Part shown: piece after piece, positions 16,966-29,973 of the stretch
Numbering within the stretch: the stretch's first letter is position 1
How the letters are laid out: the number at the start of each line of letters is the position of its first letter
NCBI GenBank assembly: GCA_028287135.1
Contig: JAQBQE010000051.1
Coordinates: 152,126 to 216,125, forward strand
DNA from: Myxococcales bacterium
GTDB lineage: Bacteria > Myxococcota_A > Polyangia > Haliangiales > Haliangiaceae
DNA: 64,000 nucleotides
Reading direction: 5' to 3'
The notes under the pieces: generated by a model
Told to the model about the DNA's origin: nothing
What the model saw: only the letters and a program-made list of their open reading frames with translations
The model's database searches: none
Translations under genes and position numbers: made by a program

Positions 16966-18501
16966 TCACGGCGCCGGTGTCGTGACGGGGCCGGCGGGCT
17001 CCTCGGGCGGAAGCGGTGGCTCGTCGGCCGATCCCGATCCGGTGCCGATCGGATCGACGACCGCAGGTGCTTGCTTGCACACCGGTGCCGCGGCCAGCGA
17101 CAGCGCGTCGAGCGCGATGCCCGGCTTGTTCTCGAGCTTGACGGCCTCACGCCCGATGCTCGCGTCCCAGACGCGGATCCCGCCCTCGCCATCCTCGTAG
17201 GCGATCAGGTTCGGATCGATCCAGTGCGTCCCGAACCGACTGCGTGCCGTGAGCACGTGCTTGAACGTGCCGGTCTTTGCATCCGCGACGTACAGCGACG
17301 GTGCCGTATCCTTCGCGCACGGATCGACCGCGGTGACGAACGCTACGCGCGCGCCTCCGGGCGCGACCGCCACCGACGCCTGGGTGACCGCGCCTGATTC
17401 GGGGATTGCGATCGTTCCACCCGCCGCGGTCTTGAGGCTGGTCGCCGTCGGGGGCTCGCCGCTCCATGCCGCGAGAACGCCATCTGCCGCGCGCACGAGC
17501 TGACCTGCATCGAGCGTGAGCGCGAGCCGTGGCACGGCAGGTGCGGCGGAGCCCTTGGTCAGCTTCCCGGTGCTCGTGTCGACGGTGGACGTGCTCGCCG
17601 CACCCGCGGTCGGCGTCGTGGTGATCAGCAGCTGATCGTTGTCGCCGTATCCGACCTCGACCGCACGCTGCGCGCCGAGCGCGATCTTCGGTCCGACCGC
17701 CTGCCACTCCTTGGTGTCGAGCACCTGGAGCCAGACTGCGCCGAACGTCGCCGGCTCCTCGGGCAGCTTCGGGCGGTCGATCTTGTCGAAGCCGACGATC
17801 GCGACCGCGTTTCCCGAGGGGGCGCGGAGGAAGCCCACGACCTTGTGATCGGTATGGGTGAGTCGCAGGTAGCGCTTGGTCTCGCGATCGTAGGCGTAGA
17901 CCTCGCCGCGGCTCGTCGCCGCTTGCACGCCCGGATCCTTGGGCCACTTGAACGAGCTCCGACGAGCGACCAACCAGATGCCGGTGGGGATTCGCTTCGC
18001 GTAGTCATCGCGCAGCTTGATCGCGACCGCCTTCACCGCCTCGCCGTGGGCGGTGGCGCGAAACTCCGCGAGGTCCTTGTCCTCGAGGAACTTCTTCCCG
18101 TAGCGCAGATAGTCTCCCGCGAGCGCCGTCACGACGTGATCGACGACTGCCGCGTGCTCGCCGGACTGTGCGAGCAGGCGTGCGAGCAGGTAGTGCGCGT
18201 CGAGGTGATACGGATCCTTCGCGACCGCGGTCTCCGCGTACTTGCGCGCCTCGTCGGGCTTCTTGGCCTTCAGCGCATCCTCCGCCTTGTCGTACGCCGG
18301 CCAGCCTTCGCCGTAGACGAAGTTCATTCGCTTGATCGAATCGACTCCGCTGATCGGAGTGGGCAACGGCGCGACCTGCGGTCCCGAGGCCGCGTCATCT
18401 TTCGCCTTCACCGACGCATCGCCCTTGTTGCCGCAGCTCGCGAGCACGATGGCGAGCGCGATCCGAGCAAATGGTGATGACCTTCTCTCCATGGCGCTCA
18501 C
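16966..18501 (-). CDS. TPR and beta-propeller-like lipoprotein
   Basis: A 511-residue predicted lipoprotein with lipobox VLASC followed by GNKGDAS. Residues about 60-150 form a helical TPR-type segment (AEDALKAKKPDEARKYAETA, DPYHLDAHYLLARLLAQSGEH). From about 165 to 480 the protein is beta-rich with repeated WD/propeller-like blades (VYAYDRETKRYLRLT, VWLQVLDTKEWQAVG, LYVADAKTGTFKHVL, IRVWDASIGREAVKL). The C-terminus is Pro/Glu-rich. The start could be either of two close ATGs. It is divergent from the OmpA-like lipoprotein with a very short gap (29 bp between start codons). A scaffold role at the inner face of the envelope is inference. Confidence 0.78.
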   Translation of the reverse strand: MSAMERRSSPFARIALAIVLASCGNKGDASVKAKDDAASGPQVAPLPTPISGVDSIKRMNFVYGEGWPAYDKAEDALKAKKPDEARKYAETAVAKDPYHLDAHYLLARLLAQSGEHAAVVDHVVTALAGDYLRYGKKFLEDKDLAEFRATAHGEAVKAVAIKLRDDYAKRIPTGIWLVARRSSFKWPKDPGVQAATSRGEVYAYDRETKRYLRLTHTDHKVVGFLRAPSGNAVAIVGFDKIDRPKLPEEPATFGAVWLQVLDTKEWQAVGPKIALGAQRAVEVGYGDNDQLLITTTPTAGAASTSTVDTSTGKLTKGSAAPAVPRLALTLDAGQLVRAADGVLAAWSGEPPTATSLKTAAGGTIAIPESGAVTQASVAVAPGGARVAFVTAVDPCAKDTAPSLYVADAKTGTFKHVLTARSRFGTHWIDPNLIAYEDGEGGIRVWDASIGREAVKLENKPGIALDALSLAAAPVCKQAPAVVDPIGTGSGSADEPPLPPEEPAGPVTTPAP

Positions 18502-18530
18502 GATACGGCGAATGTGGCAGGATTCGCGCC

Positions 18531-19112
18531 ATGAAGACCATGACTGTCGCCCTCGTCCTCGCAGCCGCCGCGTTCGGAGCCGCCGGCTGCAACAAAGACA
18601 AGGCCAAGACGGCCAAGACCGTGCCCACGGATCCCGATCCGGGTACGGCTGTCGCTGACACCAAGCCCGCTCCCAGCGTCGACAAGGACGAGCAGGTCAG
18701 CCCGAGCCTCGCGATCTCGCCCGATATCCTCGCAGCGTGCGGGATCAAGGCGATGAAGAGTGCCAACCCGACGTTCGACACGGACAAGGACGAGCTGACC
18801 CCCGACGACCGGGCCGTCCTCGATCAAGTCGCGACCTGCCTCACCACGGGCCCGCTCAAGGGCAAGACGTTGTCGCTGATCGGCCGTGCGGATCCGCGTG
18901 GCACCGAGGAGTACAACCTCGGTCTTGGCTCGCGTCGCGCCAGCTCGGTGTCGCAGTACCTCGCGCGTCTCGGCGTCGGCGCACCGCAGCTCGCGGTGAC
19001 CACGCGTGGTGCGCTCGATGCGCAAGGCTCGGACGAGTCGGGCTGGCAGAAGGATCGTCGCGTCGATCTGCAGCTCCAGGGCACCGTCCCGACGGCCGAC
19101 GCCACGAACTAG
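18531..19112 (+). CDS. OmpA-like peptidoglycan-associated lipoprotein
   Basis: A 193-residue lipoprotein, from the ATG at 18531; the track start adds 20 implausible residues. Lipobox GAAGC then NKDKAK. The C-terminal ~110 residues form an OmpA_C/Pal domain: the FDTDKDELTPDDRAVLDQV strand-helix, LIGRADPRGTEEYNLGLGSRRA with the conserved peptidoglycan-binding Asp and Arg positions, and a terminal WQKDRRVDLQL. The family binds diaminopimelate in peptidoglycan and tethers outer membrane to wall. A Cys pair (ACGIK, ATCLT) flanks the first strand, which is slightly unusual. No tol genes are adjacent, so it is a paralogue rather than the Tol-Pal copy. Confidence 0.85.
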   Translation: MKTMTVALVLAAAAFGAAGCNKDKAKTAKTVPTDPDPGTAVADTKPAPSVDKDEQVSPSLAISPDILAACGIKAMKSANPTFDTDKDELTPDDRAVLDQVATCLTTGPLKGKTLSLIGRADPRGTEEYNLGLGSRRASSVSQYLARLGVGAPQLAVTTRGALDAQGSDESGWQKDRRVDLQLQGTVPTADATN

Positions 19113-19139: not shown

Positions 19140-20666
19140 GTGGCACTCGAGCACGTCGCACAAGGGCAGACGCGGTTCTTCACGCCGGGCGTCGCCCCCG
19201 ACCCGCGCGGGATCCTGCTCGGCCGCTACATCGTGATGACGTTCGCGACCCTCGAGGGCGCGGTGTCGTGGTTCCGGCTGTACTCGTCCGAGGCATCGCT
19301 CGACGAGCTGCTCGCGAATCTGACGATCATGAAGTGCAAGACCGCGCTCGGCGGTCGCGAGATCGTCGTCCAGATCCCCGCGGTCTCGTCGTACGCGGCC
19401 GATCGCGCGGCGCGGCTGTGTCGGCTCGTGGGCGGCGCCGTCTACACGGGCACGGCCAAGCACTTCGTGAAGTACCGCGACGATCGATCGCCGTACGGTT
19501 ACGACGCGGTCGACATCGGCGCGATGGCCGCCTCGACCGACTTCATGGTCCACGGCGACGAGTTCGCGCAGGGCTATCTTCGCGAGGGCGATCTGCCGTT
19601 CCAGCGCCTGCTGTTCCGGCTCTCGATCCGCAAGCTCCCCGGTGGCGACCGGCTCGGCGACGATGATCGCGGCGACCTGTTCCTCGCCGTTGCGCGCGGA
19701 CTCTCCGAGGGCATCATCCGCTACCTCTGGCGCAATCGCGTCGAGGCGCATGCAGGACTGTTCACGCCCGGCGCGACCAGCGCGTTCGACGATCAGCAGC
19801 GCGATCGCGGTTACATGATGATCCGGGTGCGCGCGCTCCCCGAGCGGATCCTCGCGCTGTTCATCGGCACGCCGGGCATCGATGTGTTCCGTCCTGCCGG
19901 GACGACCGCCGCGGTCGCGGTCGGCTACGAGCACCCGATCGATCTCGCATCGTGCTCGTCGGTGTTTCCGCCGGACACGTTCCACGTGTTCTGGCCCAAC
20001 GATCGCGTCGATGTGCTGCCAGGTCCGCTGACGCTGAGCGACATCGCGGATCTGACGCGCGTCGATCTCGAGATGGATCGCCCCAAGGATCCGGCACAGC
20101 ACAGCGGCGCACCGCCCGAGCCGATCGGGGTCGAGCTCAAGCTCGCCGCGTCGATGGGGCCGCCTCGTCGGGTGGTCGCGACGTTGATCCCCGTCGAGCA
20201 CGGCTCGCGGCTCAAGCGGATCCTGTTCGCGTTGCCGCCGGTCAGCCTGCGCGGGCACCGGGTTGCGTCGACCGATCGCGGGATCCTCGTGATCGGCTCG
20301 GAGAACCTCGACGTCATCCCGCTCGGCCAGCTGCTGTGCGAGCTGACGCCCGGGCTGCTCGTACCGCTCGGGATGGACGTCGTGCCGCGGGTGACCCCCG
20401 AAGTGCTCGCACGGGCACTCGGGCACTCCGCCGGCATCGTCACCGTGTTCACGACCGAGGGCCGACCGTTCCAGGTCAGCGAAGGCTCGTTCCAGACACT
20501 CGAGCGTCGCTCGCTCGCGAAGATGGAGGTCGATCGCGCCGAGACCGTCGACTACGCGGCGGATGCGCCTGCGAATGCCGAGGTCGTCAACGACTCCGTC
20601 GGTCGGTTCGCGCTGTGGGGATATCCCGACGCGCCCGATCGCAAGCAGCTGCCACCCGGGAAGTAG
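19140..20666 (+). CDS. large uncharacterised protein, candidate MoxR-vWA system accessory component
   Basis: A 508-residue soluble protein starting at GTG 19140. No signal peptide, membrane helix or catalytic motif that I recognise. It alternates strand-rich segments (IVMTFATLEGAVSWF, GREIVVQIPAVSS) and helices (GDLFLAVARGLSEGIIRYLW). A middle block (RALPERILALFIGTPGIDVFRP, AVAVGYEHPIDLASCSSVFP) resembles, from memory, accessory X-type proteins encoded with MoxR ATPases and vWA proteins. The next gene starts 18 bp downstream, so they form a pair. The MoxR gene follows about 3.3 kb later on the same strand. Gene reality is secure; the system assignment is inference. Confidence 0.8.
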   Translation: MALEHVAQGQTRFFTPGVAPDPRGILLGRYIVMTFATLEGAVSWFRLYSSEASLDELLANLTIMKCKTALGGREIVVQIPAVSSYAADRAARLCRLVGGAVYTGTAKHFVKYRDDRSPYGYDAVDIGAMAASTDFMVHGDEFAQGYLREGDLPFQRLLFRLSIRKLPGGDRLGDDDRGDLFLAVARGLSEGIIRYLWRNRVEAHAGLFTPGATSAFDDQQRDRGYMMIRVRALPERILALFIGTPGIDVFRPAGTTAAVAVGYEHPIDLASCSSVFPPDTFHVFWPNDRVDVLPGPLTLSDIADLTRVDLEMDRPKDPAQHSGAPPEPIGVELKLAASMGPPRRVVATLIPVEHGSRLKRILFALPPVSLRGHRVASTDRGILVIGSENLDVIPLGQLLCELTPGLLVPLGMDVVPRVTPEVLARALGHSAGIVTVFTTEGRPFQVSEGSFQTLERRSLAKMEVDRAETVDYAADAPANAEVVNDSVGRFALWGYPDAPDRKQLPPGK

Positions 20667-20683
20667 CGCCGGCACGTAGCACG

Positions 20684-21886
20684 ATGGCCAAGACAAGCGT
20701 CAAAGACTTCCTCAGCCGGTTCGTGAAGCCGCTCGTCGCCGGTGGCGAGCTCCACGTTGGCGCTCCGATCCCGCTGCCCGATGTCGCACGCTGGGAGTCC
20801 GAGCTCGGGGAAGCGAGCGTCGAGACCGTCGATGTCGATGACGCGCGAACCGCGGTGCTGTCGACGCTGGTGTGTCGGCCGCCTGCGTTTCTGCTCGAAG
20901 GCGATGAGCTGTCGCTCGCGGCAGGTCTTCACAACGCGCTGTTCCTCGTTCATCCGCGCGCGGACCAGTGGTCGGTGAGTGATCGCCAGCGCCGCAAGAT
21001 CATCGACAGCTCGCTCGCGATGGTCAGCCAGCCGCTGACGCACAACCGCACGCGCGTGATGGCGCGGCACGCGTTGCTCCACAACCTGATGTCGCTGACT
21101 CGCCGTGACATCACGGTGTCGTGGTGGACGGGACGCGCACGCTTCCAGGGCCAGAAGCCGCCAACGCGACTCACCGCGTGGAAGGGCATGCGCCGCGTGC
21201 GCGAGGACGTGACGATCGTCGACTTCGACGAGCTGCTCGCCGTGCCCGACACCGCACCGGTGATCGCCACGCTGCTGCGGCGCACACCGCTGACCCAGCT
21301 GCTCGATGCACATCCAGGGGCCCCTCCGCTGCACTGGGAAGATGCGGTGTTCCTGCTCCGCGATGCCGAGCTCGCGCGCGCGATCGCGTACCGGCTGGTT
21401 CCCGATGCTGCGCCGAAGGAACAGATCACCGGGCCGGCGCGTCTCGCTGCCGCCTACGAGCAGATGCTCGAGCGCGCGCCCGACGAAGGTGACGTCCGCG
21501 CCGTCGGTGCGTTCCTCGTTCACCTCAACGCGCTGTTCTGCCTCGCCGAGCTCAACCTCCGCGAGCCTGGCGCCAAGAGCCCGCTGATCTCGACGGTGCT
21601 GTCCGCCGAGACCGCCGGGCAACGGCCCCGCGGCCTCGCGACCTTGTTCGCGCTCCCCGGTGCACTCGCCGTCGTCGATCCACGGCTCGCGATGCCTCCG
21701 GGGATCGCCGATCTCCCCGCGCTCGCGCAGCGCTGGAAGGTTCATCGCGCGCAGACCGCAGAGCTCCTCGGAGAGGCCGTGATCGATGCGCTCGCGGCAC
21801 GGCTGCGCCGGCACTTCCGGCTCGCGATGCGTGATCCCGCGGAGGTCGTGCAGCTTTCGAGGTCGCCCGGCGTCGCTGGGGAATAG
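20684..21886 (+). CDS. uncharacterised helical protein paired with the upstream gene
   Basis: A 400-residue protein from the ATG at 20684; the track ORF begins inside the upstream gene in another frame. It is mostly alpha-helical with no membrane span or signal. Notable stretches are LSLAAGLHNALFLVHP, RQRRKIIDSSLAMVSQP, TRVMARHALLHNLMSL and a Trp pair in SWWTGRARF. No nucleotide-binding or catalytic motif is visible, and I do not recognise a family. It follows the 508-residue protein at 18 bp spacing and so probably works with it. The downstream 2 kb (lipoprotein, decayed patch, alcohol dehydrogenase) is on the other strand or gene-poor. Confidence 0.78.
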   Translation: MAKTSVKDFLSRFVKPLVAGGELHVGAPIPLPDVARWESELGEASVETVDVDDARTAVLSTLVCRPPAFLLEGDELSLAAGLHNALFLVHPRADQWSVSDRQRRKIIDSSLAMVSQPLTHNRTRVMARHALLHNLMSLTRRDITVSWWTGRARFQGQKPPTRLTAWKGMRRVREDVTIVDFDELLAVPDTAPVIATLLRRTPLTQLLDAHPGAPPLHWEDAVFLLRDAELARAIAYRLVPDAAPKEQITGPARLAAAYEQMLERAPDEGDVRAVGAFLVHLNALFCLAELNLREPGAKSPLISTVLSAETAGQRPRGLATLFALPGALAVVDPRLAMPPGIADLPALAQRWKVHRAQTAELLGEAVIDALAARLRRHFRLAMRDPAEVVQLSRSPGVAGE

Positions 21887-21925
21887 AAGGCCTTCAGATG
21901 TTGCCCCAACACTAGGCGGCTGGTG

Positions 21926-22369
21926 CTAGCTCGCGGGCTTTCCGTTCGGGAAACAGCGGACGGCGAACTGCACATAGAGCAAAAGCAGGTCCTTTGGGGA
22001 GTGCGACTCATCTGCGACGGACTGAAGCTGCTCGAAGTTGAATGCGCTGGCCCAGAGGATGCCGTCCACCTCCTCTTGAGATCGCGCGAGTAGGCGATCT
22101 CGCAACGCTTTGGGCAAGGGTTTCCCGTTAACTACTTCGGGGACGTTGGTTGCTCGCCCGGCCTGTCGTCCAGAGACTATGGGCAATCGGCTAAGCTCGC
22201 ACAGCATCAAGAACGTGTCCTTCTGGTCATTCCGCAGTTCCACCTGGTGTGTCCTCAGGAATGCGTCGAGCGCTGCCGAATCCGCTGCCACGGGACTGTC
22301 AGAGGTCGAGGCAGGCTCCCGACCAGGCTCACATGCAACTAGGCACGCAATCACGAGTAACTTTCTCAT
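21926..22369 (-). CDS. hypothetical lipoprotein in a lower-GC patch
   Basis: A 147-residue predicted lipoprotein: MRKLLVIACLVAC signal and lipobox, then a Ser/Asp-rich linker (EPASTSDSP) and a helical mature part (DAFLRTHQVELRNDQKDTF, DLLLLYVQFAVRCFPNG). No known domain. Its base composition is visibly lower in G+C than the genes on both sides and its third positions are less GC-biased, so it may have come by transfer. It sits between two otherwise GC-rich blocks and next to a stretch without a convincing gene. Confidence 0.6.
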   Translation of the reverse strand: MRKLLVIACLVACEPGREPASTSDSPVAADSAALDAFLRTHQVELRNDQKDTFLMLCELSRLPIVSGRQAGRATNVPEVVNGKPLPKALRDRLLARSQEEVDGILWASAFNFEQLQSVADESHSPKDLLLLYVQFAVRCFPNGKPAS

Positions 22370-22855
22370 CGCGGTCCTCGGCTAATGGCGCAGGGAAATC
22401 TATTCTTCTCAAACGACAAAGTGGCGAAGTAAATCAAGATACAGGTTCTGGTCCCCCACATGGGCATGCCGACATGCATGCGATGATTCGCGAAAGTGCA
22501 CTTTGCGCACAGATCGCCATTGGCAACCCCTCATCGAGCTGAGCGCACTCGAGCTGGTTGGCGAAGTGCATGACATCGCATTGGTGAATGCACGCACTGC
22601 AGCCGAACCCACCATCGACGCCGAGACGAATGAAACGGCGCCTTATCCCGAAGGTCCTATAGACAACGTGCGGGCCGCCTTCGCCGGCGGTCGCGGATCC
22701 CGGGGGACAAGATCCGCAGCCTGAACATGTCGAGCAACCGCTCCGCCAACATCCAGTGCTTTCGATACACTCACATCCGAGAACGCATTGGGATCCGTTG
22801 TAAGTTCACGCGGTATTTGGGCGTGTCTCCACTCGCTGCTGAGTGGCATGCGACG
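22370..22855. other. lower-GC intergenic stretch, no convincing gene
   Basis: About 490 bp with noticeably lower G+C than the flanks. Short ORFs exist on both strands (for example 22503-22724 plus and 22409-22615 minus), but none has a believable start, codon bias or domain. A short plus-strand run reading GEVHDIALVNARTAAEPT looks protein-like, so this may be the remains of a decayed gene. The first part may hold the promoter of the lipoprotein at 21926. Confidence 0.5.
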
Positions 22856-23902
22856 TCAGTCCGCGAACGTCGTCGCGTCGATCGAGAACCGGTACCGCAC
22901 GTCGCCCTTGATCGTGCGCTCGTACGCCTCGTTGATCTGACGAGCGGCGATCACCTCGACGTCGGCGACGAGGTTGTGCTGGCTGCAGAACTCGAGCATC
23001 TCCTGGGTCTCGCGGATCCCGCCGATCGCCGAGCCCGCGATCCGCTTGTTGCCACCGATCAGCGAGAACGCGCTCATCAGCGACGGCTCGGGCGGCGCGC
23101 CGACACACACCATCGTGCCGAACGGGCGCAGCAGCTTGAGATAGGCGCCGTAGTCGTGCTTCGCCGAGACCGTATCGATCAGCAGATCGTAGCGGCCCGC
23201 GAGCCGGGTGAACGTCGCCGGGTCGCTCGTCAGGCCGAAGTCCACGGCACCGAGCCGGGTCGCATCGGCCTGCTTGCTTTGCGAGGTGCTGAGCATCGTG
23301 ACCTCCGCGCCCATCGCGGCGGCGATCTTGACCGCCATGTGGCCAAGACCGCCGAGCCCGACCACACCGACGCGCGTGCCCGGCTTGCAGTCGAACTGCC
23401 GCAGCGGCGAGTAGGTCGTGATGCCCGCGCACAGCAGCGGTGCCACCCCGGCCGGCGCCAGGTTGTTCGGCACCTTCAGTGCGAAATGCTCGGTGACGAC
23501 GATCTGCTGGGCATAGCCGCCGTAGGTCGGCGTCACGCGGTCCATCTCCGTGCTGTTGTACGTGCCGGCGGCGCCGCGCTCGCAGAACTGCTCGTGATGC
23601 TCACCGCAGTACGTACACGTTCGACACGAGTCGACGAGGCAACCGATGCCGGCCAGATCGCCGACCGCGAGCTTCGTGACCTCGGCGCCGATCGCCGTGA
23701 CGCGTCCGACGATCTCGTGACCGGGGACCATCGGGAACGCCGCCTTGCCCCACTCAGCGCGAACCTGATGGATGTCGCTGTGGCAGATGCCGGAGAACAG
23801 GATGTCGAGCTGGACGTCGCGAGGCCCCACGGCCCGACGCTCGATCGTCGAGGGCGCCAGGGGTGCGCTCGCGGACGCTGCTGCATAGACGCGCGTTTTC
23901 AT
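22856..23902 (-). CDS. zinc-dependent NAD(P) alcohol dehydrogenase (YahK-type)
   Basis: Medium-chain dehydrogenase, 348 residues from the ATG at 23902 (E. coli YahK has about the same length). Catalytic zinc ligands are Cys40 in GICHSD and His62 in VPGHEIVG. The structural zinc site is Cys93, Cys96, Cys99 and Cys107 in the block SCRTCTYCGEHHEQFC. The nucleotide-binding motif is VVGLGGLGHM around residue 180. The family reduces aldehydes with NADPH, including cinnamyl-type substrates. It lies on the minus strand between plus-strand genes and shows no operon partner. The track start at 24046 adds an unlikely N-terminus. Confidence 0.93.
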   Translation of the reverse strand: MKTRVYAAASASAPLAPSTIERRAVGPRDVQLDILFSGICHSDIHQVRAEWGKAAFPMVPGHEIVGRVTAIGAEVTKLAVGDLAGIGCLVDSCRTCTYCGEHHEQFCERGAAGTYNSTEMDRVTPTYGGYAQQIVVTEHFALKVPNNLAPAGVAPLLCAGITTYSPLRQFDCKPGTRVGVVGLGGLGHMAVKIAAAMGAEVTMLSTSQSKQADATRLGAVDFGLTSDPATFTRLAGRYDLLIDTVSAKHDYGAYLKLLRPFGTMVCVGAPPEPSLMSAFSLIGGNKRIAGSAIGGIRETQEMLEFCSQHNLVADVEVIAARQINEAYERTIKGDVRYRFSIDATTFAD

Positions 23903-23997
23903 CCGGCCACTGTGGCAGGAATGCGTGAATGCGCATCCGGCTAAGCTGGCCAGGTGCCTGGATCGAGCACGGTTTTCGGGTAATGTGCATTGTCCAG

Positions 23998-25227
23998 ATG
24001 GTCGCGCCGCCCACGACTCCGCGTAACTTTGCCGTCGACGTCGCACGGGCCTCCGCCTCGTTCCAGGACCTCGCCCGGCAGATGGGGGCGCAGTTCCTCG
24101 ACAAGCAGGAGATCATCCGCCTGATGGTCGTCTCCGCGATCGCGGGCGAGCACATGGTGATCGTCGGTCCGCCCGGTACCGCGAAGTCGGCGATGATCGA
24201 CATGTTCTCGAAGCTGATCGACGCCAAGTACTTCGAGTACTTGCTGACGCGCTTCACCGAGCCCAACGAGCTGTTCGGCCCGGTCGACATCGTTGCGTTC
24301 CGCGAGGGTCGCTACACGCGCCGCCTCGAGAACATGTTGCCGACCGCCGAGGTCGTGTTCCTCGACGAGATCTTCAAGTCGAACTCCGCGATTTTGAACT
24401 CGCTGCTGCACGTCATCAACGAGCGCAAGTTCCAGAACGGTCCCGATGTCGTCCAGGTTCCACTGATCTCGCTGTTCGCCGCGTCGAACGAGGTGCCGAA
24501 CGACGAGAACCTGGCGGCGATGTTCGACCGCTTCCTCGTGCGCGTGCTGTCGGACAACCTCGACAGCTATCACTTCCACGAGCTCATGAAGAAGGGCATC
24601 TCCCTCGAGCTCCGCAAGATGACCGGCCGCGGCGTCGACAATGTCGGCCGGCCCGTCGCCGAGCTGCGCCCCGTGATCTCGGCCCGGGACCTCCGTCAGA
24701 TCCAGCAGAACTTCGACAAGTTCATGGTGTTCCCGGAAGAGTTCCTCACCAAGTACAAGGGAATCATCTTCCAGATCCGTAGCGAGGGCATCTCGGTCTC
24801 GGATCGTCGAGCGGTGAAGCTCCTCAAGCTGTTCGCGGCGTCGGCCGTGTTCGATGGCCGCACCAAGGTCCACGACGGCGACTTCTTCATCCTCCGCCAC
24901 ATCTGGAACAACCTCGATCAGGTCGAGCTCCTCGAGGAGATCGTGAACCCGATCGTCGACTCGTACTACCGCGAGCATCCAGACGAGCGTCGGTTCATCG
25001 GCCCGTCGGCGAGCCTCGACGACCTGCTGGCCGAGCTCGGCGTCATTCGCGAGCTCCTGACCGCGGGCACCGAGCTCTCGGACATCCAGCTGTTCAGCCA
25101 GCTCAAGAACCTCAACGAGATCAAGGTCGCGCTCGCAGCGCTCCCTGGGGAGGCTGCGGCCCGGATGATCCGCGAGGTCGATCAGCTGCTCGAGACCGTG
25201 TTCGCGTCGTCGAAGTTCGGTCTCTGA
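23998..25227 (+). CDS. MoxR/RavA-family AAA+ ATPase
   Basis: AAA+ ATPase of the MoxR class, 409 residues from the ATG at 23998. Walker A is GPPGTAKS (57-64) and Walker B VVFLDEIFKSN (about 119-129). Conserved TEPNELFGPVD and the sensor-1-type LFAASNEVPNDE follow, with Arg finger candidates in FDRFLVRV. The C-terminal ~130 residues are helical and RavA-like. MoxR ATPases typically work with a von Willebrand A protein to remodel or insert cofactors into target complexes. A vWA protein is encoded 1.4 kb downstream on the same strand, with two minus-strand genes between. Family identification is firm; the client is unknown. Confidence 0.94.
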   Translation: MVAPPTTPRNFAVDVARASASFQDLARQMGAQFLDKQEIIRLMVVSAIAGEHMVIVGPPGTAKSAMIDMFSKLIDAKYFEYLLTRFTEPNELFGPVDIVAFREGRYTRRLENMLPTAEVVFLDEIFKSNSAILNSLLHVINERKFQNGPDVVQVPLISLFAASNEVPNDENLAAMFDRFLVRVLSDNLDSYHFHELMKKGISLELRKMTGRGVDNVGRPVAELRPVISARDLRQIQQNFDKFMVFPEEFLTKYKGIIFQIRSEGISVSDRRAVKLLKLFAASAVFDGRTKVHDGDFFILRHIWNNLDQVELLEEIVNPIVDSYYREHPDERRFIGPSASLDDLLAELGVIRELLTAGTELSDIQLFSQLKNLNEIKVALAALPGEAAARMIREVDQLLETVFASSKFGL

Positions 25228-25243
25228 GCTTTCGATCGCAGCT

Positions 25244-25753
25244 TCAAGCCTTCTGGAACGGCAGCTCGGTGATGTAGTCCTGCTTGCCGAGGTCGACGCC
25301 GTTGTGGCGCAGGATCGAGTAGGCCGTCGTCAGGTGGAAGTGGAAGTTTGGCAGTGCGAGGTGGTCGAGGTAATCGCCGCCACGCATCGGCGCGGGCAGC
25401 CACGACGGCTTGCACGCGCGCTCCTCGGCACCGTTGAAGTCCTCGCGCGTGAACGTGGCGAGGTGGTCGACCATCGTCTTGATGCGCGCGCGAGCCTCGG
25501 CAACCGTCTTCTCGGTATCCGGGTGCGACGGCGCCGGCTTGCCGCTCAGGTACGCGACGGCGTACTTCGCCTGATCGCACGCGGCCTGGATCTGGCGAAC
25601 GAGCGGGTGCTGGTCGGGCGCAAGGCGCGCCTGGAGCAGCGTCTCGACGTCGAACTTCTTGGACTCGGCGAACGCCGTGGCCTTGTCGAGCCACTGGTTC
25701 ACGGCCTTGAGGTGCTTCGAGAAGATCGGGACGGTCGCGTCGTAGAGGTTCAT
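25244..25753 (-). CDS. DUF1993 family protein
   Basis: A 169-residue cytoplasmic protein matching DUF1993: N-terminal LYDATVPIFSKHLKAVNQWLDKA, a central RLAPDQHPLVRQIQAACDQAKY, and a C-terminal LPNFHFHLTTAYSILRHNGVDLGK. The fold is expected to be a DinB-like four-helix bundle; the conserved His residues (FHFH, RHNG) could bind a metal. No activity is established for the family. It converges with the MoxR gene, 16 bp apart, and lies between the MoxR and vWA genes on the opposite strand. Confidence 0.88.
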   Translation of the reverse strand: MNLYDATVPIFSKHLKAVNQWLDKATAFAESKKFDVETLLQARLAPDQHPLVRQIQAACDQAKYAVAYLSGKPAPSHPDTEKTVAEARARIKTMVDHLATFTREDFNGAEERACKPSWLPAPMRGGDYLDHLALPNFHFHLTTAYSILRHNGVDLGKQDYITELPFQKA

Positions 25754-25768
25754 GGACGCGAGACTAGC

Positions 25769-26584
25769 TCAGCGCCGCGCCAGGGTGACGACCACAGGAC
25801 GATGATCCGACGTGCCAGCATCGAGCACGCGGGCGTCGCTGGCGGTCAGGTGGCTGTCGATCATGACGTGATCGATGTCGATCGAGAGCAGCGACTTCTT
25901 GCGACCGTCCATCACGGTCTCGTAGTGCCAGCTCGTCGGACCCGTCGTGGTCACGCGCGTCATCCCGTGCTTCGCCAGGTACTGGATCGCCTTGCCGTCG
26001 GGCGGATCGTTGAAGTCGCCGGCGACGATCGTCGGGAGGTCGTACTGGATCTTTTGCCAGTACGCCTCGATCTCGCGGCGCCGGATCGGCGGCGTGGTCT
26101 GCCAGCCGCGGACCCACGATCCACCGTCGAGGTTCGGGCGCAGATGGACGTTGAGGACCTGCAGCATTCCGAGGGGGCTCTCGATCAGGAGACGTGACGC
26201 CGGGAACCATCCACCACGCGGCGGGTTCCACACGTCCTCGGATTTGATCGGGTGCTTCGACAGCACGCCAAGCCCGCCCGCCGCGCGCGCGGTGACCTGA
26301 TACGACTGGTGCGGGAACTGCTCCTTGAACCGCGCGTGGAGCGCATGCCGCCACTCGGCGGTGACCTCCTGGAGCAGCACGATGTCGGCGTCCCCGGCCT
26401 GGATCGCGTCGAGCGTCGATGCGTGATCCGGGTTTCCGTAGTTGAGGTTGTAGGTCATCAACCGCACGGCCTTCACCGCAAGGTGAGCTCGGGACGGAGA
26501 TGCGACGAGGGCCACCAGTACCACCGCGAGCAGAGGGAGCAATCGCACCGCGAACAACATGACCGAAATTCGCGATCGCGCCAT
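25769..26584 (-). CDS. secreted endonuclease/exonuclease/phosphatase-family protein
   Basis: A 271-residue protein with an N-terminal signal peptide (FAVRLLPLLAVVLVALVASP) and a DNase-I-like fold. Active-site blocks: MTYNLNYGN (Asn), VLLQEVT (metal-binding Glu), LNVHLRPN, IVAGDFNDPP (Asp and Asn), and the C-terminal GTSDHRPV (Asp-His). The family includes nucleases and phosphodiesterases; an exported member may act on extracellular DNA or phospholipid head groups. I chose the ATG at 26584; a later ATG before LFAVRLL would also leave a full signal. It is divergent from the vWA gene with 54 bp between starts. Confidence 0.87.
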   Translation of the reverse strand: MARSRISVMLFAVRLLPLLAVVLVALVASPSRAHLAVKAVRLMTYNLNYGNPDHASTLDAIQAGDADIVLLQEVTAEWRHALHARFKEQFPHQSYQVTARAAGGLGVLSKHPIKSEDVWNPPRGGWFPASRLLIESPLGMLQVLNVHLRPNLDGGSWVRGWQTTPPIRRREIEAYWQKIQYDLPTIVAGDFNDPPDGKAIQYLAKHGMTRVTTTGPTSWHYETVMDGRKKSLLSIDIDHVMIDSHLTASDARVLDAGTSDHRPVVVTLARR

Positions 26585-26638
26585 GTGTGCACGGAGAGAC
26601 ACGAGAACCTCTGAGCCGTTGCGTGCTAGCCTTCGCCC

Positions 26639-28162
26639 GTGCCGATTCCGGTCGAACGTCGACGGAGCTTCCTCGCCCGCCAGGCCGCGACGATGGCGCT
26701 GTCCCACGTCCAGGTCGACACGCCGATGGCGCTCGTCCGCGCCTCGGCATGGAGTAACTCGCTCGCCCGCATGGGCGTGCACCTGCCGCTGTTCGTCGTT
26801 CACGACATCGGGGTGATGCTGTCGATGACGCGCGGGGCCGGCGGCTACGTGATCCGGGCTCGCGAGGCACAGCTCGCGCGGATCCAGATGGCCCCGACCG
26901 CCAAGCCGCAGCTCGACAAGTATCGCCGGCTGCTCGAGAACATCGCGGCGTCCGAGGTCACCGAACGGCTCGCGGGCCTGCGCCTGCGAGACGAGATGGT
27001 CGCCGTGCTGCTCTCGAGGATCCTCGGTGATACCTACAATCGCTGGCGCGACCGCAGCAAGAGCTCGGGGGCCGAGCCGTTGCCGCTCGACCTCGGGATC
27101 CTCGGCGAGATCGACTACGCCGATCACTTCCGCGACTTCGATCCGCGCAGCCTGTGGGGCTTCATCGAGCACCTCGAGGCGCAGTCGATGCACATCTACA
27201 CCCAGGTCGAGCTGATCGATCTCGATACGGTGCGGCTGCTCGGCCTGTTCAAGGAAGACAGCGCCTCGGGCTCCGAGGCGCTCGGCGGGGCGATCGACCT
27301 CGTCGATCTGTTCGCGGCGCTCGGATCCCCTGAGGCCAACGACGTCGCGAACTTCTCGCTCGATCTGTTGCCGAGCGTGCTCGAGACCCGCCGCTCGACC
27401 GGCGCCCAGACGTTCGCTGTCGACGGTTATGCGTCCATCGAGCGCAAGGGCAACATCGATTCACTCGTGCTGTCCGAGCTCGCCTACGATCGCGAGATCT
27501 TCGAGCAGAAGGTGGTCGATGCCGAGCTGCTGTACTACGGCCGCGAGAAGCAGCGCGAGGACGAGCGTCGCCTGCAGTACATCCTGATCGACTGCTCGGC
27601 CTCGATGCGCGGGCAGCGCCAGGTGTTCGCGCGCGGCCTCGCGCTCGCGCTGATCAAGAAGCTGACCCTCGAAGGCGACGAGATCTGGGTCCGGTTCTTC
27701 GATTCGCGCCTGCACGAGACGATCAAGATCGGGCGCTCCGGCCAGGTACCGGTGCCGTATCTCCTGAGCTTTCGCTCCGAGCGCGGCCGCAACTACGGCA
27801 AGGTGTTCCGGCAGCTGCTGGTCGAGGTCACGCGCCTGCGGCGCGAGCAGAAGCGTCGCGTCGTGCTCTACACGATCACGCACGGGCAGTGTCACATCGA
27901 GCCCGAGCTGATCACCGCGCTCAAGCAGCAGGCGTTCATGTACGGCGTCGTCGTGTTGCCGTCGAGCGATCAGCTACCGGAGTTCGTGCCGCTGCTCGAC
28001 CGCCAGCAGATCGTGTCGGGCGACGTGCTGACCAACCGGGCCGAGCGCCAGCGTCGCGCTCTCGACATCGTTGGTGACGCGACCAAGACGCGGAAGGCGC
28101 AGTCTGCGGAACCGCCGCCGACGGACTCAGCGGTCAGCCGGCGGATGAACGTGGTGCGCTGA
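26639..28162 (+). CDS. von Willebrand factor A domain protein, MoxR partner
   Basis: A 507-residue cytoplasmic protein starting at GTG 26639. The N-terminal ~300 residues are helical and unlike named domains. The vWA domain begins near 312 with an intact MIDAS DCSAS (318-322), followed by GQRQVFARGLALALIKK and DEIWVRFFDSRLHET. The C-terminal tail is Ala/Pro-rich. Proteins of this shape (long helical N-part, C-terminal vWA) are standard partners of MoxR ATPases. Its stop overlaps the start of the TPR/HEAT gene (ATGA-type, 1 bp), so those two are coupled. Function with the MoxR protein at 23998 is inference from family and strand. Confidence 0.9.
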   Translation: MPIPVERRRSFLARQAATMALSHVQVDTPMALVRASAWSNSLARMGVHLPLFVVHDIGVMLSMTRGAGGYVIRAREAQLARIQMAPTAKPQLDKYRRLLENIAASEVTERLAGLRLRDEMVAVLLSRILGDTYNRWRDRSKSSGAEPLPLDLGILGEIDYADHFRDFDPRSLWGFIEHLEAQSMHIYTQVELIDLDTVRLLGLFKEDSASGSEALGGAIDLVDLFAALGSPEANDVANFSLDLLPSVLETRRSTGAQTFAVDGYASIERKGNIDSLVLSELAYDREIFEQKVVDAELLYYGREKQREDERRLQYILIDCSASMRGQRQVFARGLALALIKKLTLEGDEIWVRFFDSRLHETIKIGRSGQVPVPYLLSFRSERGRNYGKVFRQLLVEVTRLRREQKRRVVLYTITHGQCHIEPELITALKQQAFMYGVVVLPSSDQLPEFVPLLDRQQIVSGDVLTNRAERQRRALDIVGDATKTRKAQSAEPPPTDSAVSRRMNVVR

Positions 28163-29973
28163 TGGCGCGCAAGCAATTCAACTCGATCGAATCGACCGCC
28201 GATCAGGCCGAGGCGCTGGTCCAGCAGGGCAGGTGGGCAGAGGCCGAGCGCAACTACCGCGAGCTGATCGGGCAGACCCACGTCATCAACTACGAGTACG
28301 ACGACTGGTTGCGCCGGCTCGGCGAGATCTATCGCCACCTCAATCGCGGCCGCGAGGCCTCGTTCGTCTATCTCTATCTTCACTACTTCGACATGGCGCG
28401 TGGCCAGCTCGCCGGCGAGGAGCACATCGGTCTGCGCGCGCGGCTCGCCGAGATCGAGAAGAAGTGGACCGAGGCGGCGGGGCTGTACCAGCAGGCAAAG
28501 CTCCCGGTGCACGCCGCGGTCGCGTTCGAGCGCGCCAAGCAGTACACCGACGCCAGTGCCGCATGGAAGGCGCTCGTCCAGACCGCGGGGCTTGGCCATC
28601 GGCCGTACGAGGCGGCGCTGGTCCACTTCAACTACGGGCTCGCCGCGGTCCGGCTCGACGCCAACTCCGCCGAGGCGCGACGCGCGCTGATCGAGAGCCA
28701 GCGCAAGCTCGAGCAGGTCGCGGATGACTTCGAGCAGGTCGGGGAGCTCGAGCGCGCGTTCGATTGCTTCCAGATCTTGCTCAAGCTCGGCAAGGAGAGC
28801 TCGCAGTTCGAGAACCTGGCCGAGGGCTACGTCAACTGCATCCGCGTGCTGCGCGACGACAACCTGAAGTTCTACGTCCTCCAGTACTACGAGGATTTCA
28901 TCAAGCTCGCGCTCGAGCGTGGCGAGCTGCATGCCGCGGCGACGCTCTATCAGGAAGCTGCGGCGTTCGCAGCGCGCGCAGGTCTGCCGTACGACCGCCA
29001 CTACCAGCACAAGAGCGCGCTGACCTGGATGCGGTGCGCCGACAAGTTCGTCGAGACCGGCGTGCCGGTGCAGATGACCGAGAACGCGCTGCTCGCCGCC
29101 GCGTCGCAGCATTCGGCGGTCGGAGACTATCCGGCGGTTCGCGAGTGCTTCGAGAAGCTCGCGGGACTCGAGCTGCCGGATCGCGCGAAGAAGCGGTTCT
29201 CGACCATCGCTCAGCGCTATCGCGGGCTCGCGGCTCCGCCGGTGGAACTGCCAGGGCTACCCGACTACCTCAAGCAGCAGCACGCGTACGCCGATATCTG
29301 GTTTGTCGATCTTCTCGAGTGGGAGATGGACGGCGATCCGTACGCGGTCGCCGCCTCGATCGTCGGTGACCTGCGCTATCCGAACGGCATCCGCCGTCGC
29401 GCGCTCGTGGTGCTCCTGACGCTCGCCGATGCCCAGAGCCGCAAGCAGGATGGCGAGACCGAGACCCTGGTCCATGTCGCCGAGCTGCTCGGCGAGCTGC
29501 AGTCCTATGCGGCGCTATCACCGCTCGAGAAGCTGTTCGGCTCGACGGACCCGGTGATCCGGCGGGCGGCGGTCCGAGCGCTCCGGTTCCTCTACTTCAA
29601 GCGGTCCTTCGTGATCGTGCGCAAGGCGCTCGCCGATCCGGATGCGCAGGTCCGCGAGGCCGCGCTCGTCGCGATCGGCGGTCTCCACTTCCCGCACGCG
29701 TTCAATCCCCTGGCGCGGATCTACCGCGAGAGCAACGATCCGCGGGTCCGCACGTCCGCGCTGCAGTCGATCGGGAAGATCCAGACCGTCGAGGCCGGTG
29801 AGTTCCTCGTCATGGTCCTGCGTCAGGAGACCGGGGGGCTGCGTGATGCAGCTCATCAATCGCTCGCGCAGATGGACAACGCCGACGTGCTGCCGATCCT
29901 TCGCCAGCACCACGAGATCGAGACCAATCCGCAGGTTCGCGAGACGCTCGGCGAGCTGCTGCGCCGACACTGA
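28162..29973 (+). CDS. TPR and HEAT repeat protein
   Basis: A 603-residue all-helical scaffold protein with no signal or membrane helix. The N-terminal ~350 residues contain TPR-like helix pairs (ALVQQGRWAEAERNYRELIG, AAATLYQEAAAFAARAGL, YPAVRECFEKLAGLEL). The C-terminal ~150 residues are HEAT/PBS-lyase-type repeats (LFGSTDPVIRRAAVRALRFL, ADPDAQVREAALVAIGGL, SNDPRVRTSALQSIGKI). It is translated immediately after the vWA protein. It probably supplies the protein-binding platform of the MoxR-vWA group; partners are unknown. Confidence 0.9.
   Translation: MARKQFNSIESTADQAEALVQQGRWAEAERNYRELIGQTHVINYEYDDWLRRLGEIYRHLNRGREASFVYLYLHYFDMARGQLAGEEHIGLRARLAEIEKKWTEAAGLYQQAKLPVHAAVAFERAKQYTDASAAWKALVQTAGLGHRPYEAALVHFNYGLAAVRLDANSAEARRALIESQRKLEQVADDFEQVGELERAFDCFQILLKLGKESSQFENLAEGYVNCIRVLRDDNLKFYVLQYYEDFIKLALERGELHAAATLYQEAAAFAARAGLPYDRHYQHKSALTWMRCADKFVETGVPVQMTENALLAAASQHSAVGDYPAVRECFEKLAGLELPDRAKKRFSTIAQRYRGLAAPPVELPGLPDYLKQQHAYADIWFVDLLEWEMDGDPYAVAASIVGDLRYPNGIRRRALVVLLTLADAQSRKQDGETETLVHVAELLGELQSYAALSPLEKLFGSTDPVIRRAAVRALRFLYFKRSFVIVRKALADPDAQVREAALVAIGGLHFPHAFNPLARIYRESNDPRVRTSALQSIGKIQTVEAGEFLVMVLRQETGGLRDAAHQSLAQMDNADVLPILRQHHEIETNPQVRETLGELLRRH

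Follow-up and report, generated by a model that had tools for sequence, protein, structure and literature searches.

The window, meaning the whole 64,000-nt stretch of myxobacterial DNA that was analyzed, carries five core genes on its plus strand. The first ORF encodes a 508-aa protein (X508; 19140..20666) and is followed, after a 17-nt gap, by that of a 400-aa protein (X400; 20684..21886). Downstream lie the genes for a 409-aa MoxR AAA+ ATPase that matches the Pfam model bpMoxR (23998..25227), a 507-aa vWA protein (26639..28162), and a 603-aa TPR-HEAT scaffold protein with a HEAT_2 Pfam match (28162..29973). The MoxR ORF itself opens at 23929; MoxR proteins of relatives begin with MVAPP, which places the start at the ATG at 23998. 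The vWA stop and the TPR-HEAT start overlap by one base (TGATG). No signal peptide is evident in the five core proteins, and none has a strong transmembrane segment, with 19-residue hydropathy peaking at 1.75.

Four minus-strand genes interrupt this series and are insertions outside the set: a lipoprotein gene (21926..22369), a zinc alcohol dehydrogenase gene (ADH, 22856..23920), a DUF1993 gene (25244..25753), and a gene for an EEP-type protein (25764..26612), a name taken from the initial annotation for a product with no Pfam match. A low-GC patch (57-60% GC) spans 22.0-22.9 kb, and its segment between the lipoprotein and ADH genes (22370-22850) has no clear gene and is possibly the remnant of an insertion. 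X508 is directly preceded, at a distance of about 28 nt, by an OmpA-like lipoprotein gene (18471-19112) that is present in several same-genus genomes and is not class-wide. The initial annotation was correct on the five ORFs, the low-GC patch, and the minus-strand genes. The tight gene pairs that it reported are also present, the overlap being TGATG and not of the ATGA type.

In relatives, the five genes keep the order X508-X400-MoxR-vWA-TPR/HEAT on one strand in 26 of the 27 20-kb handle loci in which all of them occur, and likewise in 41 of 42 such named loci, two locus sets that share some contigs. The sole exception in each has the X508-X400 pair inverted. One inversion relative to MoxR lies in a same-genus genome (L059, 8665-11412). 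Median intergenic distances are in the tens of bases, except between MoxR and vWA (438 in handle loci, 156 in named loci). X400 and MoxR are separated by at most about 150 bases in several same-genus relatives; the lipoprotein and ADH genes were not found between them in the relatives checked, so that this insertion is, as far as seen, private to the window's genome. The DUF1993 and EEP genes are common to several same-genus genomes. The minus-strand genes are thus local insertions into a conserved unit, as anticipated by the proposal of one functional set that was interrupted later. Most Kofleriaceae loci have a receiver-domain gene between MoxR and vWA (for example, L067 11367-11750), which is absent from the window. 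A gene for an N6/N4-type DNA methyltransferase adjoins MoxR in several loci (L052 12139-13356, L050, and L132).

Features of the Core Proteins

The initial annotation named no family for the two X-like proteins, which holds for X400 and not for X508. X508 passes two Pfam cut-offs: that of bpX2 (29.0 bits, cut-off 23.6), with the match confined to the C-terminal half of the model, and, marginally, that of fvmX7 (25.4 bits, cut-off 24). These models match 26 and 15 of 31 X508 members, respectively. In profile alignments of 360-390 columns, X508 aligns with the fvmX7 protein of an FtsH system (E 5e-12) and with the X component encoded beside the WD40 protein of a propeller system (L232; E 6e-13). 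The AF2 model of X508 (pLDDT 80) contains repeated alpha/beta units that recall ferredoxin-like folds. Fold and sequence searches of the PDB gave no significant relative, and an NCBIfam search gave no match. On these profile comparisons, X508 is best classed as a remote homologue in the fvmX7/bpX2 superfamily, akin to the X components of both the FtsH and the propeller type of MoxR-vWA system. In one 13.2-Mb genome, X508 is broken into two frames near residue 218, by a frameshift or a sequencing error (L188 7176-8638). X400 is an unnamed protein family. It is mostly helical, with a confident predicted model (pLDDT 92), and it has no match in Pfam and NCBIfam searches, no significant match in PDB fold and sequence searches, and no counterpart in profile searches of FtsH and propeller loci. 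It was detected in 59 of 95 relatives and evolves fastest among the five core proteins.

MoxR matches bpMoxR with 246 bits, together with AAA_5 and AAA_lid_8. Its P-loop, GPPGTAKS, is found throughout the set, and its Walker B motif is FLDE. The bpMoxR match is weak evidence by itself because the model (PF20030) is broad: E. coli RavA also scores 191 bits, and 12 of 14 control genomes exceed the cut-off. The name of the model is misleading (control in L085). RavA proteins are the best solved relatives of MoxR, and the alignment with E. coli RavA covers 269 columns at 37% identity (E 1e-43). Against the RavA family model, MoxR reaches 191 bits versus a cut-off of 681, and Pfam found neither the LARA nor the RavA C-terminal domain, both of which were matched in the E. 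coli RavA control. MoxR trees are consistent with the set's MoxRs as one group, for which support is weak (40/66) and no monophyly is claimed; the MoxRs of FtsH and propeller systems group together with support of 99/95.

The vWA protein consists of a helical N-terminal part and a C-terminal vWA domain that ends shortly before the C-terminus. It falls below every Pfam cut-off, with 16.3 bits for ivWA versus a cut-off of 35 and 115 bits in the control L237. Its vWA domain aligns weakly with ViaA. There is no WD40 or beta-propeller match, compared with a 177-bit WD40 match in the control L232. The MIDAS, initially annotated as intact, departs from that of other vWA domains: DxSxS is invariant, and T414-H415-G416 replaces the usual xTDG, with His in place of Asp in all 21 aligned sequences. 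From the motif, we read His415 as the probable site of the strand-4 Asp of the MIDAS. With one MIDAS residue missing, vWA coupling may differ.

Retention across the Phylum and the TPR-FHA and TPR-Kinase Partners

A survey of 379 genomes of the phylum found X508 in 77, X400 in 77, and vWA in 74. All three occur together in 74 genomes, with a union of 78; the hypergeometric probability of this co-occurrence is about 1e-75 in a calculation that ignores relatedness. Eighty genomes, comprising 69 positives and 11 nearly complete negatives, were chosen for the remaining components. All 69 positives have both MoxR (517-748 bits) and TPR-HEAT, and none of the 11 negatives has either. Thus, the five dispersed-looking genes are one obligate unit, lost only together, in a large myxobacterial class. 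The X508-X400 pair nearly always shares its genome with both MoxR and vWA, linked or not, and neither outcome that the initial annotation had named as refuting was observed. In a 13.2-Mb contig of family f14, X508-X400 lies at 4.73 Mb, MoxR at 7.70, a TPR-FHA/TPR-kinase pair at 7.98, and vWA-TPR/HEAT at 11.06. Retention is therefore independent of linkage, because parts lying megabases apart in this family are all kept. Negative genera fall inside families that otherwise retain the set (f14 and f16), and whole-set loss has therefore probably occurred more than once. Chance co-occurrence is ruled out by the all-or-none pattern across the phylum and the order conserved across families.

The initial five-gene set stands as a core, and two partners had been overlooked. 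Clustering of neighbour genes showed that a divergent pair encoding a TPR-FHA protein and a TPR-Ser/Thr kinase adjoins X508. Of the 26 intact handle loci, 13 have this pair next to X508; 15 named loci have it as well, including L161 of Nannocystis exedens DSM 71, a locus with all seven genes. In the window's genome, it is on another contig (about 7.45-10.1 kb), where TPR-FHA occupies G000:C4:7453-8655 and the kinase gene follows immediately. Of the 69 positives, 66 have a full-length TPR-FHA; the 11 negatives have none, and their FHA matches are short, reaching about 67 bits at most. GR and SRxH, the phosphopeptide-binding residues, are conserved in the FHA alignment, and the kinase motifs VAVK, HCDLKPAN, and DFG are intact. 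Kinases are abundant in these genomes, and the TPR-kinase of the most divergent family does not score far above generic kinases. Among the matches listed for the kinase profile in negative genomes, all begin at position 128 or later and do not include most of the TPR part. TPR-FHA and TPR-kinase would complete a seven-part set, the basis being adjacency, co-retention, and distance correlation only.

Pairwise distances of the components follow those of RpoB (r 0.75-0.85). After removal of the RpoB signal, the highest partial correlation is that of vWA with TPR/HEAT (0.88), and that of vWA with FHA is 0.66, in permutations that are not tree-aware. For the five core genes, dN/dS in same-genus genome pairs is 0.10-0.27; evolution is fast in X400 and in the FHA protein. 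Inheritance of the set is mainly vertical, usually in single copy and under purifying selection. Named relatives belong to Myxococcota, chiefly Kofleriaceae MAGs, followed by Sandaracinaceae, Nannocystaceae, and others. Beyond the phylum, the survey consisted of a vWA pattern scan of GTDB contigs, in which 80 loci were retained and 98 weaker matches dropped. The titles of the retained loci are myxobacterial or unresolved (Deltaproteobacteria, Proteobacteria, or unnamed bacterium).

Proposed Function and Competing Explanations

That the core travels with a phosphoprotein reader and a kinase suggests a protein-remodelling machine under kinase control that has not been described before. In the proposed mechanism, TPR-kinase would phosphorylate a component or a client. 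The FHA protein would read this phospho-mark and recruit to the MoxR hexamer both the client and the scaffold formed by TPR-HEAT, X508, and X400. Docked in the MoxR ring, the vWA protein would then couple ATP hydrolysis to a remodelling of the client complex or to its disassembly, by analogy with NorQ-NorD, in which a hexameric ATPase and a vWA plug remodel a client complex (PMC9976466). We consider it somewhat probable that the seven parts form such a cytoplasmic, kinase/FHA-gated machine and that it belongs to the physiology of the lineage rather than to a variable immune cassette. The chances are about even for the fuller statement that this seven-component AAA+ remodeller is kept or lost complete, represents a third ternary branch, and has a cellular and not an immune role.

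An immune branch is fairly unlikely. There, X508 and X400 would sense invaders, and MoxR-vWA remodelling would release an effector, as proposed for FtsH and propeller systems, whose conflict role is itself a proposal (Kaur et al., 2020; PMC7159879). Such a role would fit the place of X508 in the fvmX7/bpX2 superfamily, the GxxxTAKS P-loop of MoxR that Kaur et al. give for both kinds of system, the X7-MoxR-vWA order of the phylum's FtsH systems, and the fast evolution of X400 and the FHA protein. None of these observations is specific to a conflict role, no effector, protease, or hypervariable part was found, and PADLOC matched the core to no named defence system. Vertical inheritance, mostly in single copy, with whole-family retention and the low dN/dS values given above, is unusual for defence cassettes; together with purifying selection and the lack of an effector, it speaks mildly against a conflict role.

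We regard as improbable a maturation chaperone of the RavA-ViaA or NorQ-NorD type that serves one enzyme or respiratory complex, with the kinase and FHA genes as incidental neighbours. Although MoxR aligns with RavA, its best solved relative, and the vWA domain weakly with ViaA, MoxR lacks both the LARA and the RavA C-terminal domain, and its score stays far below the RavA model cut-off. A metabolic client would fit the class-wide retention, but the additional partners are also all-or-none and no enzyme operon is linked. An ancient neighbourhood that persists by vertical descent without a common function is highly improbable: component distances do track RpoB, but co-retention survives megabase dispersal, and where genera have lost the set, within families that otherwise retain it, every part is gone.

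If the kinase/FHA-gated remodelling machine is real, it would add a phosphorylation-controlled branch, and a likely non-immune member, to the MoxR-vWA systems. The choice between immune and physiological roles would then be testable in cultured Nannocystis strains that bear the set. The set would also be a clean example of how co-retention of dispersed genes can expose a machine of several parts that escapes operon-based searches. Two families merit structure solution: X400, and X508, which forms a deep branch of fvmX7/bpX2.

Relation to Described MoxR-vWA Systems

Linked MoxR and vWA genes with a third conserved component, the general MoxR-vWA ternary scheme, are present at the locus. The initial annotation is borne out to that extent; the set does not correspond to the described FtsH or beta-propeller systems. 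FtsH ternary systems are defined by a double-FtsH protein, and propeller ternary systems by a vWA protein with a C-terminal propeller, a feature called strict (Kaur et al., 2020, eLife 9:e52696, PMC7159879). In both, the MoxR P-loop is often GxxxTAKS (PMC7159879). In literature searches for MoxR/vWA sets with FHA or kinase in myxobacteria, the sole on-topic papers were Kaur et al. and a follow-up to it.

Control FtsH systems from the same phylum encode an AAA-M41 protein, fvmX7 (120-145 bits), MoxR, and ivWA (115 bits in L237), in the order FtsH, fvmX7, MoxR, ivWA in L235 and L237. The source genomes of the L229 and L235 systems also carry the set described here. The control propeller system, also from this phylum, combines bpMoxR, X, and WD40 (177 bits; L232). 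No FtsH gene is present in the window's stretch or among the recurrent neighbours, whereas the controls L229, L235, and L237 each have one, and no propeller protein was found in the loci examined.

The set resembles the FtsH systems in its X7-like protein, its GxxxTAKS MoxR, its vWA protein with a helical N-terminus, and the order X7-MoxR-vWA. Unlike them, it has no FtsH/M41 protein; its X508 reaches 25 bits for fvmX7 versus 99-145 in real members, and its vWA protein 16 bits for ivWA (cut-off 35) versus 115 in a real member. It also adds X400, TPR-HEAT, TPR-FHA, and TPR-kinase. With beta-propeller systems, it shares the 246-bit bpMoxR match, a bpX2 match above the cut-off, and the alignment of X508 with the X component of L232, but its vWA protein has no C-terminal propeller and HEAT repeats are present instead. 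E. coli RavA-ViaA is similar in its AAA+ core (37% identical) and in a vWA domain at the C-terminus, and differs in its LARA and RavA C-terminal domains, which the set lacks, and in the set's five extra partners. With NorQ-NorD and other MoxR-vWA couples, the likeness would lie in the working mode, a hexameric ATPase with a vWA plug; unlike NorQ-NorD, the set has no linked client enzyme, has kinase and FHA partners, and carries THG in place of TDG in its vWA domain. Since the set shares X508 homology and a GxxxTAKS P-loop with the FtsH and propeller systems but has neither FtsH nor a propeller, we place it in the same superfamily, where we read it as a probable third branch of MoxR-vWA ternary systems.
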